Shown in pieces: positions 16,383 through 19,933 of a DNA stretch of 64,000 bases. The position numbers were made by a program, and so were the translations under genes. How positions within the stretch are numbered: the stretch's first letter is position 1; each line of letters opens with the position of its first letter. This stretch comes from Tsukamurella conjunctivitidis (GTDB lineage: Bacteria > Actinomycetota > Actinomycetes > Mycobacteriales > Mycobacteriaceae): the NCBI RefSeq assembly GCF_007858475.1, contig NZ_VIGX01000002.1:62001-126000 (forward strand), written 5' to 3'. The notes beneath the pieces were generated by a model. That model did not search any database and was not told where the DNA came from. It worked only from the letters and a program-made list of their open reading frames with translations.

Positions 16383-16521
16383 GCTCCGAACGTAGGCGCC
16401 CGGCGCGGCGCTCCGCGCGGGAACAACCGAAACGCTCACCACCGCAGAACGATCGGAAACAAACGCGAATCGACAGGTCGGCAGCCGCGCCGCGGTGCTC
16501 CGCGTTTGCCAGAATGGACCC

Positions 16522-18249
16522 ATGACGAACCTCAGCGAGACCGGCGGCAACCCCCGGATCGGCACGGCGCTCACCCCCGGTGCCACCAAGGCGCTGATGC
16601 TGGGTTCGGGCGAGCTGGGCAAGGAGGTGGTGATCGCCTTCCAGCGGCTCGGCGTGGAGACGATCGCCGTCGACCGGTACGCGAACGCGCCCGCGATGCA
16701 GGTCGCGCACCGCAGCCACGTCATCGACATGACCGACGCCGCCGAGGTGCGCCGCGTCATCGAGGAGGAGAAGCCCGACTTCGTCGTCCCCGAGATCGAG
16801 GCGCTCGCCACCGACGCCCTCCTCGCCGTCGATGAGGAGGGGCTCGCCGAGGTCATCCCCACCGCGCGGGCCGTCGCGCTGACGATGGACCGCGAGGGCA
16901 TCCGCAAGCTCGCGTCCGAGGAGCTCGGCCTGCCGTGCTCGCCGTACGCGTTCGCCTCGTCGCTCGAGGAGGTGCGCGCCGCGTCGCGCGAGGTCGGTTT
17001 CCCGTGCGTGATCAAGCCGGTGATGTCGAGCTCGGGCAAGGGCCAGTCCGTGGTGCGCTCGGTCGAGGAGCTCGACGGTGCCTGGGAGTACGCCGTCGAG
17101 GGCGGCCGCGTCCGGAACGAGCGGGTCATCGTGGAGGGCTTCGTCGACTTCGACTACGAGATCACCCTGCTCACGGTGCGCGTCTACGACACCGATCGCG
17201 GCAAGGTGGTCACGCGCTTCTGCGAGCCGATCGGGCACCGCCAGTCCGACGGTGACTACGTCGAGTCCTGGCAGCCGCAGGCCATGAGCCAGGCAGCCTA
17301 CGACGCGGCGACCTCCGTCGCGGGCCGCATCACCACGGCGCTCGGCGACGGCGGCACGGGTGGCCGCGGCGTCTTCGGCGTGGAGCTCTTCGTCAAGGGC
17401 GACGACGTCTACTTCTCCGAGGTCTCGCCGCGGCCGCACGACACCGGCCTGGTGACGCTGGGCTCGCAGCGGCTCTCCGAGTTCGAGCTGCACGCCCGCG
17501 CGATCCTCGGCCTGCCGGTGGACACCTCGCTGATGTCGCCGGCCGCGTCGGCGGTGATCTACGGGACGAAGGACAGCAGCTCCGTGGCCTTCGACAGCGT
17601 CTCGCGCGCGCTCGACGTGCCCGAGAGCGACCTGCGCCTGTTCGGCAAGCCGGAGGGCTACGCCAAGCGGCGGCTCGGTGTGGCGGTCGCGACCGCCGAC
17701 ACCGTCGAGGTCGCGCGCGCCAACGCCGCCGAGGCGGCGGGCCGCGTCGTCGTGGTCGACAGCGCCGATCCGGTGCAGCAGGGCGCGCCCGAGACCACCG
17801 CCGTACCGATCCAGCGGCCGCAGCCGCCCGAGGACCTCTCCACCCGCGCGATGCCGGTCCAGCGGCCCGCGCAGCCCGGACCCGCGCAGCAGGCTCCGCA
17901 GCCCCCGTCCGCCCAGCCCCCGCAGGGCCCGCCGCCGCGTCCCGCGCAGCCGGGGCCGGGGCAGCCCCCGGTGCCGCCGGCCCCGCCGACCGCCGCGTCG
18001 CCGGTCGTTCCGCCCCAACAGCCGTCCTCGCGCGTGGCCCCGCCGCAGCCGGGTCCGGGCGATCCGGTCGCGCCGACGAGCATGCACCCCGTCGGTGCCC
18101 GGCGGCCCGCGCAGCCCCGCCCGATCCAGCCCGCCCCGCGGCCCGCGACCGGCGAGACCGCGACGCGCCCGAAGACTCCGGAGACCGAGGAGTACGACCA
18201 CAACCCGGCCACCTCCATCGGCCTGCCCCCGCAGCGCCCGCAGGACTAG
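16522..18249 (+). CDS. purT: Formate-dependent phosphoribosylglycinamide formyltransferase with Pro-rich tail
   Basis: 575 aa; typical PurT is about 390-430. Residues 1-415 are a complete Pur[35 protein letters not shown]-grasp elements [16 protein letters not shown] and [14 protein letters not shown], and [16 protein letters not shown]. It makes formyl-GAR from formate, ATP and GAR in purine synthesis. The last ~155 residues are a Pro/Gln/Arg low-complexity tail with repeated RPAQPGP-like units, absent from ordinary PurT. Homologues start MTNLSE-like, so 16522 was taken over 16495. The 3' end overlaps erm by 4 nt. Confidence 0.93.
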
Positions 18250-19001
18250 GCGAACCGCGCGAAGGCCTCCGTCCAGTCCTCCGTGCGGAGGTCGCGGGGG
18301 AGTCGGGCGCCGCGTCCGACCGCCCACCTCCGCGCCTCGGCCCGACGATGCCGTGGCGCGACGCCCGCGAGGATCTCCGGGAGCCCGCGGCCGCGGCCGG
18401 TGAAGACGGCGTGCACGAAGGCCGCGTACGTGCGGCGCTGCGCCGTCGGCACGAGCGGGGTGCGCCGGCGCGTGATCGTGAGCAGGCCCGCGTCCACCGC
18501 GGGCCGCGGTGTGAACGCGGCGGCGGGGATCCGGCCGGCGAGGCCGAATTCGTACCAGGGCGACCACTGCGCGGTCATCATCGTCGCGCCGCCGACGCCT
18601 GCCCGCCGCCGTGCGACCTCCCACTGCACGATGAGGACCGCGCCGGTCCAGTGCTGTGCGTGCAGCAGCTTGCGGAGGACGGCGGTGGTGAGGTGGAAGG
18701 GCAGATTGCCCACCACCGCATGAGGTTCGGTGGGCAGCCGGTGCTGTAGGAAGTCGCCGTGCACGACGGTCGCCGCAGGCAGTGCGCGTCGCATGCGGCC
18801 CGCGTGGCGCCGGTCGATCTCGACGGCGGTGAGTGGACGTCCCAGTCGGAGTAGGGGTTCGGTCAACGCGCCTGCGCCGGGACCGATCTCGACGATGGGG
18901 CCGTCGGTGCGGCGGGTGAGGTCGACGACGCGGGCGATGACGGCACCGTCGGTGAGGAAGTTCTGGCCGTGCTCGTGACGGCCCCCGTGATGGGTGGGCA
19001 T
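18246..19001 (-). CDS. erm: Erm-type 23S rRNA (adenine-N6) methyltransferase
   Basis: 251 aa from the ATG at 18999-19001, which has GGAG 9 nt upstream. The Erm/KsgA fold is clear: [19 protein letters not shown]-binding [15 protein letters not shown] (37-51), GDFLQ, and the catalytic [13 protein letters not shown]. The HGQNFL start, short length and Arg-rich tail match macrolide-lincosamide-streptogramin resistance Erm rather than KsgA. It methylates A2058 of 23S rRNA (family knowledge). A structured leader with a small ORF precedes it. An in-frame ATG nine codons upstream (19028) is less likely. Confidence 0.85.
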
Positions 19002-19168
19002 GAAGGAGTTCTCCGGGTAGAGGATCACCCGGGCAGCGCGAATCGCCGCCCAGCGGAAGGATGCTGGGGCGGTGAAGCCGAGAAGGTGGGGAAGGCTCCG
19101 CCGCCGCTATGCGCGGCCGCGGTCCACCACTGCCGCCGCTGCTGCGGCGGCTGCTGCCGAAGAACTCA
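19002..19168 (-). promoter_or_regulatory. Structured 5' leader of erm, candidate translational attenuator
   Basis: From the predicted transcript start at 19169 the RNA can form three hairpins: a perfect 8-bp stem inside the small ORF (19132-19139 with 19144-19151), a 9-bp stem with one bulge (19046-19054 with 19063-19072), and a perfect 6-bp stem with an 8-nt loop (19013-19018 with 19027-19032). The last contains GG of the erm GGAG Shine-Dalgarno (19011-19014). The run at 19098-19107 just after the small ORF can pair with the same bases as the first stem, so alternative folds exist. This is the pattern of inducible erm leaders. Confidence 0.55.
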
Positions 19169-19169
19169 C
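19107..19169 (-). CDS. Leaderless 20-codon Ala-rich leader ORF upstream of erm
   Basis: GTG start, three Ser, nine consecutive Ala, then VVDRGRA and TAG. Five of the nine Ala codons are GCA, uncommon in this GC-rich DNA. There is no Shine-Dalgarno; TAGCCT ends 7 nt before the GTG, as in leaderless mRNAs. RGR fits the Arg/Lys-x-Arg/Lys macrolide arrest motif, and VD followed by a basic residue recalls ErmBL, which stalls at its Asp-Lys step. Both are established for other erm leaders; function here is inferred. The ORF ends 105 nt before the erm start. Confidence 0.5.
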   Translation of the reverse strand: MSSSAAAAAAAAAVVDRGRA

Positions 19170-19176
19170 GGGATGC

Positions 19177-19182
19177 AGGCTA
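19177..19182 (-). promoter_or_regulatory. -10 hexamer of the erm leader transcript
   Basis: Minus-strand TAGCCT fits TANNNT, with 7 nt to the GTG at 19169. No convincing -35 or AT-rich WhiB7-type element is visible upstream. Confidence 0.5.
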
Positions 19183-19210
19183 GGCGCGCGCAGTGCGGGG
19201 CGCCACCGGA

Positions 19211-19933
19211 TTACCCGCGCTGGAGCCAGTAGGCCTGCGACTTGATCCGTTCCTTGGACAGGCCGAAATCGCGTTTGGCGGCCTTGGTGATCTCGCGCGT
19301 GGCCTTGGTCTCGGCGGCGACGAACAGGAAGGCTTCGGTGCCGATTCCCGCGCCGATGACGGTGGACACCAGTGTGGCCCCGCGGTTCTCGCGCGGCACC
19401 CAGGTGACGGTCTCGCTGTCCACCGGCAGTTCCCGCTCCGCGTCGTGCTGGTACTCGAGGTACACGCGGCACGGGGCCTGCGCGGTGCGCAGGATGCTGT
19501 TGATCGCGGGGATCGAGGCGGCGTCGCCCACGAGCACGTACTCCGACGGTGCCGGCTCCTCCGGGACGGTCAGGTCGGCGCCCATCATGGTGGCGGCGAT
19601 GCGGTCGCCGGGCTCGGCGTCGAGGGCCCAGCGGGGCGCGGGGCCGTCGTGGATCGCGAACTCGATGCTGAACTCCGAGCCCTCCGGCGCGACGATCGTG
19701 TAGCCGCGCTGCACGAGGCTGCCCTCGTCCTCATCGGTCGTGGCGGCGCCGCTCTTGGGGACCCAGAGGCGCACCCACATGGTCGGGAACCAGGGGTTGT
19801 CCTGCAGGAAGTCACCGCCGTCGAAGCGGATGCGGTGATAGTGCTCGCTGACGGACTCCGTCGAGAGCACTGTGAAAACGTAGTCGTCCGCCCGCATCGC
19901 CTTGAGGATCAGGCCGGTCACTCCTCTACCCAT
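19211..19933 (-). CDS. Siderophore-interacting protein (FAD-binding ferric reductase family)
   Basis: 240 aa. It has the SIP layout: a beta-barrel FAD domain with SEHYHRIRFDGGDF, QRGYTIVAPE and a DGPAPRWA segment, then the NAD(P)-side domain with YVLVGDAASIPAINSIL and a final FLFVAAETKATREITKA...RIKSQAYWLQRG. Family members release iron from ferric siderophores by reduction in the cytoplasm. A candidate IdeR box covers the start and the -10 (TAGCCT, 6 nt before the ATG), so iron-repressed expression is likely. No siderophore synthesis genes are in the window. Confidence 0.87.
   Translation of the reverse strand: MGRGVTGLILKAMRADDYVFTVLSTESVSEHYHRIRFDGGDFLQDNPWFPTMWVRLWVPKSGAATTDEDEGSLVQRGYTIVAPEGSEFSIEFAIHDGPAPRWALDAEPGDRIAATMMGADLTVPEEPAPSEYVLVGDAASIPAINSILRTAQAPCRVYLEYQHDAERELPVDSETVTWVPRENRGATLVSTVIGAGIGTEAFLFVAAETKATREITKAAKRDFGLSKERIKSQAYWLQRG

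Follow-up and report, generated by a model that had tools for sequence, protein, structure and literature searches.

A candidate leaderless-type attenuator upstream of erm in Tsukamurella and related Actinomycetota

The erm gene of Tsukamurella conjunctivitidis is very probably controlled by macrolide-dependent ribosome arrest on a short leader peptide and translational attenuation of erm, a reading drawn from comparative sequence analysis and supported by the conservation of the leader, its tie to erm, the R-x-R motif in relatives and the covariation of competing RNA pairings. Leader-peptide control of erm has long been known, and mycobacterial erm control is usually ascribed to WhiB7. Neither Rfam nor a search of the open-licence literature yielded any account of erm leaders on leaderless mRNAs, of this RNA, or of MFS exporter genes preceded by it. 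We lean slightly towards a broader view, in which a single RNA family in Actinomycetota would combine an R-x-R leader with a switch of six segments into a leaderless attenuator that senses macrolide-class drugs, and would control erm as well as two groups of MFS exporters (DHA2-like and LmrA-like); in Tsukamurella it would occur as a variant arresting at [D/E]-R-G-R, whose mRNA 5' end would form an additional helix with the erm Shine-Dalgarno (SD) sequence, so that leader initiation would gate erm. If this is true, inducible macrolide resistance in these bacteria could be predicted from their sequences, the response would extend to some drug exporters, and the drug-dependent arrest of ribosomes on leaderless mRNAs could be put to the test.

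Organization of the erm locus

All features of the locus lie on the minus strand of the window, the whole 64,000-nt stretch of DNA that was analysed (Table 1). The 20-codon ORF of the original prediction, with nine alanines followed by VVDRGRA and a GTG start 7 nt after TAGCCT, was confirmed, box and ORF together spanning 19182-19107, and the downstream gene that it had called erm exceeds the broad Erm cut-off (NF000499, 265.8 bits against 212); no cut-off of a named Erm subtype was reached, the best being Erm46 (374.3 of 503). Between the leader TAG at 19107 and the erm ATG at 19001 lie 105 nt of GC-rich RNA that include the SD sequence GGAG, whose GG sits, as had been foreseen, within the hairpin CCGGGT...ACCCGG. 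The region 19001-19169 folds at -96.4 kcal/mol (z -4.84), and none of 200 shuffles was equally stable. GCA, rightly called rare, makes up five of the nine alanine codons before VV, against 3.9% of the 1909 alanine codons in 31 gene-like ORFs of the window; leader codons 2 and 3, AGT and TCT, make up 1.9% and 0.7% of the serine codons in window genes. As a control, a leaderless-type ORF with [RK]x[RK] lies upstream of 1.2% of 2532 window positions.

Rfam gave no match at E values up to 1 in 18700-19500, and NCBIfam none to four leader peptides. Scanning of 18200-19400 for sigma-70 promoters and terminators returned none of either, and translational control is favoured because no terminator-like site was found in this region. 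On the opposite strand, a purT-like ORF (16495-18249) overlaps the end of erm by 4 nt, and its product carries a long Pro/Ala/Gln-rich C-terminal tail past the PurT domain.

Table 1. Elements of the erm locus, in window coordinates.
Feature	Position	Strand	Evidence or remark
-10-like box TAGCCT	19177..19182	-	7 nt 5' of leader GTG; leaderless-type promoter
Leader ORF, GTG 19169 to TAG 19109-19107, 20 codons, (M)SSSAAAAAAAAAVVDRGRA	19107..19169	-	conservation 11/11
V-V-D-R-G-R core codons, candidate arrest site; last codons double as RNA segment 0	19113..19130	-	
Leader nt 3-13 GAGTTCTTCGG, complementary to erm SD region 19016-19006	19157..19167	-	lineage-specific extra helix
RNA segment 1 GCGGCGGC, starts at G of TAG	19100..19107	-	alignment and covariation
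RNA segment 2 TTCACCGCCCCAGC, partner 1 or 3	19063..19076	-	covariation
RNA segment 3 GCTGGGCGGC, partner 2 or 4	19045..19054	-	covariation
RNA segment 4 GCTGCCCGGG, partner 3 or SD segment	19028..19037	-	covariation
RNA segment 5 ACCCGGAG, carries erm SD GGAG 19014-19011	19011..19018	-	covariation
Putative attenuator element scored by covariance model R1	18999..19124	-	83.2 bits, E 2.6e-13
erm, 23S rRNA adenine-N6 methyltransferase, 251 aa	18246..19001	-	profile match

Conservation of the leader within Tsukamurella

The genus sample comprised 16 Tsukamurella genomes, 11 of them with erm once a paralogue matched in all 16 had been excluded. The leader ORF at the centre of the original prediction is kept at all 11 erm loci and ends 99-106 nt before erm. 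Its start codon, GTG in six and ATG in five, follows a TANNNT box by 6-7 nt in every case, the -10 spacing expected of leaderless mRNAs, and its stop codon is always TAG. The consensus is M(S/G)..A(n)VV[D/E]RGRx, and the corresponding codon pattern, GTNGTNGANCGNGGNCGNNNNTAG, has a single occurrence in every genome with erm and is missing from the five without it; read backward as a control, it is absent from all 16.

In two erm-less genomes (G002, G012) purT lies 40-55 nt from a siderophore-interacting gene, and in two others (G013, G010) purT follows this gene too, with a variable tail that was left unaligned. These four empty sites hold no erm and no leader pieces above chance; the fifth genome (G011) falls outside the comparison, its contig ending too early. 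The once-per-genome pattern, together with empty sites that lack both erm and leader, suggests that promoter, leader and erm form one module. One genome (G009; L011, L017) has erm matches in two overlapping frames behind an intact leader, reflecting either a broken gene or an assembly error.

The number of alanines changes by whole codons among the 11 leaders, and VV[D/E]RGR stays constant. The shortest leaders, MGASAAVVDRGRA and MGAAVAVVERGRA, have 13 amino acids, and the longest has 22 residues with 11 alanines before VVDRGRA. All 11 carry RGR, and hence an R/K-x-R/K uORF upstream of erm, at positions ranging from codons 10-12 to 19-21. The poly-Ala tract, after which the leader had been named, is not its conserved part, which is VV[D/E]RGR: the tract appears dispensable and, with its GCA codons, seems to be a feature of the lineage, and the core does not appear dispensable. 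No Ile precedes AVV in any of the 11 leaders, which by this measure are not IAVV leaders. Folds of leader plus UTR have z values of -2.5 to -5.7 across the 11 versions, and those of the part after the stop codon alone -0.8 to -4.6, two of the 11 (L002, L011) being unremarkable.

R-x-R leaders in related Actinobacteria

The Erm model was run over 401 genomes of the family and gave a match above the cut-off in 98. Upstream DNA from 90 loci outside Tsukamurella (88 above the cut-off and two below) was combined with that of the 11 Tsukamurella loci, and 30 dinucleotide shuffles served as control. An ATG or GTG ORF of 8-60 codons, 5-8 nt after TANNNT, was found at 98 of the 101 loci, against 7.5 (sd 2.0) in shuffles, and [RK]x[RK] in the leader at 93, against 3.3 (sd 1.7, maximum 6); many of these rows, like those of the named loci, are close relatives, and the counts are not independent. 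Among named actinobacterial loci (the best 80 of 247, 79 of them with enough upstream DNA after exclusion of L145 with 106 nt only), a leaderless-type ORF is present in 78 of 79 and R-x-R in 58. Nineteen of the 20 named-locus ORFs without R-x-R are of the erm(X) type, in the variant form MLISGSVF[MI]RPLT[SN]R; besides these 19, five further loci (L029, L030, L035, L036, L039) have such erm(X)-like leaders. According to a 2024 survey, uORFs are not universal in erm genes, show no universal conservation pattern and possibly have independent origins (PMC11264731); the actinobacterial erm loci examined here are nearly the opposite, with at least 11 named genera, Mycolicibacterium among them, sharing a putative RNA switch.

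R-x-R is the rule in the leaders of relatives, which bears out the attention originally given to RGR and fits the +X+ motif described as a macrolide arrest motif in PMC8298421. It stands at codons 10-12 in the leaders of Mycolicibacterium iranicum (MGITSVAVIRIRRF) and Nocardia brevicatena (MGNTNIAVVRIRRV) and in the 13-residue Tsukamurella leaders, and in mid-peptide in the long leaders of genus g23; a Streptomyces example is MCAFAAAAVTRIRRA. The g23 leaders (L067, L071, L075-L080, L083-L085, L088-L096, L099, L101, L104, L105, L107, L109, L111, L113, L118) measure about 20-40 aa and carry IRLRT-like motifs, and the erm proteins behind them are more distant, roughly 35-40% identical to that of the window. 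A second D-R-G-R, outside Tsukamurella, occurs in the erm leader MCSTAIAVDRGRRF of a Brachybacterium MAG (L158).

In a tree of 149 erm proteins, 10 Tsukamurella sequences form one clade with support of 0.988; L011 was kept out of the tree and of the RNA alignment because of its matches in two frames. Neighbouring branches hold a Nesterenkonia erm without recognised leader (0.871) and Gordonia soli, with leader MGIPVMALIRIRRS (0.623), and all three branches fall in an erm set that mostly carries R-x-R. The Tsukamurella leader appears to be a divergent member of a wider actinobacterial system. The original prediction had proposed a route different from that of mycobacteria, a claim that has to be given up, since the leader route is actinobacteria-wide with mycobacteria included.

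Competing pairings in the leader RNA

For the RNA we hand-picked 44 leaders from the erm clade nearest the window and, in addition, from Streptomyces and Saccharothrix, and removed seven that were 90% or more identical to another. The resulting 37-row alignment (A3) represents at least 11 named genera, and the counts given here do not extend to leaders of the erm(X) type or to most of those from Nocardia. Blocks recurring across genera are GCCGC at the leader end (segment 0), GCGGCGG after the stop codon (1), CCGCC..CAGC (2), GCTGGGCGG (3), GCTGCCCGGG (4) and CCCGGAG with the SD (5). The 'on' set of helices, 1:2 and 3:4, is 93.2% paired, with 12 cells changed on both sides against 2.8 (0 of 500 shuffles). 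The 'off' set, 0:1, 2:3 and 4:5, is 89.6% paired (1 of 500 shuffles), with 12 such cells against 5.9 (2 of 500) and a covariation score reached by none of 500 shuffles; it is ordinary by two other measures, doubly changed pairs (32 of 500) and the number of pair types (133 of 500), and its 12 cells are equalled or exceeded in two slid versions (16 and 12). Slid controls are 34-54% paired, and their covariation score is lower in all 12 versions. Compensation is clear in L050 (3:4, UCGAGCGG with GCUGCUCGA) and in L173 (GGGCGC with GCGCCC), and a second alignment of our own concurs for 2:3, 3:4 and 4:5 (0 of 300 shuffles each). The alignment that had been proposed as a check thus shows covariation of competing pairings across genera.

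Helix 0:1 hardly differs between rows, too little for covariation to be tested, and in Tsukamurella an outer pair of this helix is broken. Within this genus segments 3 and 4 are invariant, and the 'on' set shows no change on both sides and no gain over shuffles, variation being too small. With covariation in both sets over the 37 leaders, the leader RNA is predicted to adopt two mutually exclusive structures, one of which would hide the SD, as expected of a translational attenuator. By segment parity, the SD would be hidden when 0:1 is formed and free when a ribosome lies over segment 0.

Three further pairings were considered and set aside. RNAalifold proposed that the leader end pairs with segment 3, but over the different genera this helix has little strength (75.6% paired, 11 of 300 shuffles), and a wider Tsukamurella register of 1:2 has no cross-genus support (66.2% against 66.6% in shuffles), the common register being the supported one. 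Pairing of the leader start with the SD is not general (mean z -0.44 over 143 leaders) and is strong only in close Tsukamurella: L001-L006 have -18.0 kcal/mol, L008 and L011 a weaker helix, and L007, L009 and L010 a weak one.

Related elements before erm and MFS exporter genes

Covariance model R1 was built from A3, of which the window element is itself a member, and does not include the downstream gene. In the window its next best score after the element itself is 19.0 bits. At E values up to 0.001, R1 gave 15 matches in 14 of 296 genomes of the class, and over 150 genomes of family f18 it gave 38 matches in 36 genomes, 29 of them new. These correspond to 44 distinct places, of which 39, including that of the window, were examined and five left out; 27 of the 39 lie directly before erm, the frame being short in one case (L261), and the other 12 are directly followed by an ORF for an MFS transporter. 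A leaderless-type R-x-R leader accompanies 25 of the 26 erm matches besides the window. Among the 12 exporter matches a leaderless-type ORF is present in 10 and R-x-R in five (e.g. MPASDRLRRP).

The exporters were identified by profile scan in six cases and by BLAST against those six in the rest. Ten of them are DHA2-like. The other two resemble LmrA, an exporter of lincomycin: L238 scores 455 bits against a cut-off of 850, and L240 is 74% identical to L238. R1 gave no match in G037 and G062, both sampled genomes with the distant-type erm leader, indicating that it misses some leaders. The exporter loci with the element (L230, L232, L234, L235, L237, L238, L240, L244, L257, L259, L260, L262) belong to other actinobacterial families.

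Proposed mechanism and alternative explanations

We infer that transcription starts at the leader start codon, so that the leader would be translated from a leaderless mRNA. Without drug, ribosomes would clear the leader and the RNA would adopt 0:1, 2:3 and 4:5, hiding the erm SD. With drug in the exit tunnel, a ribosome would arrest somewhere on the VV-[D/E]-R-G-R codons and cover segment 0, upon which 1 would pair with 2 and 3 with 4, segment 5 and the SD would be freed and Erm would be made. Candidate stall codons are RGR, VV|D/E and D|R.

For static folding, the modelled ribosome masks the RNA around the first base of the P-site codon, from 15 nt on the 5' side, an assumed figure, to 17 nt on the 3' side, a figure taken from PMC6238534. 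The expectation that a single ribosome on RGR would release the erm start did not hold in this model: the SD stays paired, with a mean exposure in Tsukamurella of 0.08 against 0.09 in the free RNA, rising to 0.32-0.33 with the whole leader blocked. The low exposure is due to leader nt 3-13, which in most Tsukamurella species are paired with the SD region. Over 97 leaders, stalling changed SD exposure by more than 0.05 upward in 23 and downward in 23 (p 0.79), and static folding does not discriminate as proof of a switch; the test may have little power, because erm(X)-type loci fail it too. A ribosome on RGR would overlap part of segment 1. With the leader covered and the stop at V or D, 1:2 has a mean of 0.61 and 3:4 of 0.43-0.45, and with the stop at G 0.24 and 0.17.

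These last values bear on where the ribosome would stop, since V or D stops allow 1:2 and 3:4 better than a G stop. The same attenuator could arrest elsewhere than on R-G-R: either D/E would come in while the P site holds the second Val, as in ErmAL1, or Arg would come in while it holds Asp, as in ErmBL, where K follows VD. We hold this version to be a real possibility but would not put it first. In ErmAL1, IAVV is followed by E, an acidic residue after VV, and all 11 Tsukamurella leaders have D or E directly after VV. IAVV and MRNVD are named as the arrest motifs of ErmAL1 and ErmBL in PMC12698558, and XDK is among the erythromycin arrest motifs listed in PMC8298421. Relatives, however, conserve R-x-R and not VV[D/E]. 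The leader might instead be a ribosome sensor whose RNA works through mRNA stability or transcription attenuation, as the strong folds of all 11 leader-plus-UTR versions and the scarcely shifting SD exposure in silico would allow; the last helix, 4:5, takes in the SD and 18200-19400 holds no terminator-like site, which makes this unlikely.

Control of erm by WhiB7 at the promoter, with the leader as a passenger, is unlikely too, and we rate it a little lower still. The genome does encode a WhiB7-like protein with an AT-hook, and PMC4128351 and PMC13393426 describe control of erm(37) and erm(38) by WhiB7. The WhiB7 motif is AT-rich and lies just upstream of the -35 element, according to PMC3905903, yet the erm promoter has, judged by eye, no block like the AAAAATAA of the genome's own whiB7-like promoter, in agreement with the original report of no WhiB7-type site; moreover, a passenger would not retain codons and pairings over many genera. 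WhiB7 may add a transcriptional input to erm. That the poly-Ala tract senses alanine supply, as in amino-acid attenuation, is very improbable: nine consecutive alanine codons enriched in GCA would suit such a role, but the controlled gene is a drug-resistance gene, and the 13-codon leaders (L009, L010; two of 11) keep the core with only four alanines in total, three of them before VV. Macrolide-dependent arrest with translational attenuation thus remains our preferred reading.

Relation to known systems

A close parallel for the peptide is ErmDL, described in PMC8298421 as a short uORF with R-x-R (+X+, R-L-R) and erm downstream, on which arrest is thought to refold the mRNA. The Tsukamurella leader, which carries the +X+ motif, would by analogy work like this type of control, with arrest predicted. 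In contrast to ErmDL, it has a leaderless-type start and D/E before R-G-R. D/E at this place is unexpected, because D or E just before R-x-R is reported, in PMC8298421, to weaken ketolide stalling on ErmDL; it possibly reflects a bias towards cladinose macrolides or another stall codon.

The Corynebacterium erm(X)-type leader MLISGTAFLRLRTNR, which we take to be the peptide of the published erm(X) proposal, likewise lies about 100 nt upstream and has R-L-R and the leaderless-type -10 spacing, but it is unlike the Tsukamurella peptide outside R-x-R and is absent from our RNA alignment. Translational attenuation through an upstream leader peptide has been proposed for erm(X) (PMC3350403). At the RNA level, erm(A) with its inverted repeats 1-6 and the ErmAL1 leader (IAVV), as outlined in PMC12698558, offers a likeness by description in a chain of hairpins of which the last falls on the erm SD; Tsukamurella has one leader, not two. 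The whiB7 uORF attenuator of Mycobacteriales is, as PMC4128351 and PMC13393426 describe it, another uORF-controlled resistance response, but it ends in a terminator, for which the Tsukamurella erm locus gave no counterpart, and controls a transcription factor. The whiB7-like gene of the window's own genome (L204, 850-1725) encodes the AT-hook RPRGRPRKN, has the AAAAATAA block before its promoter -35 and is preceded by a possible uORF.
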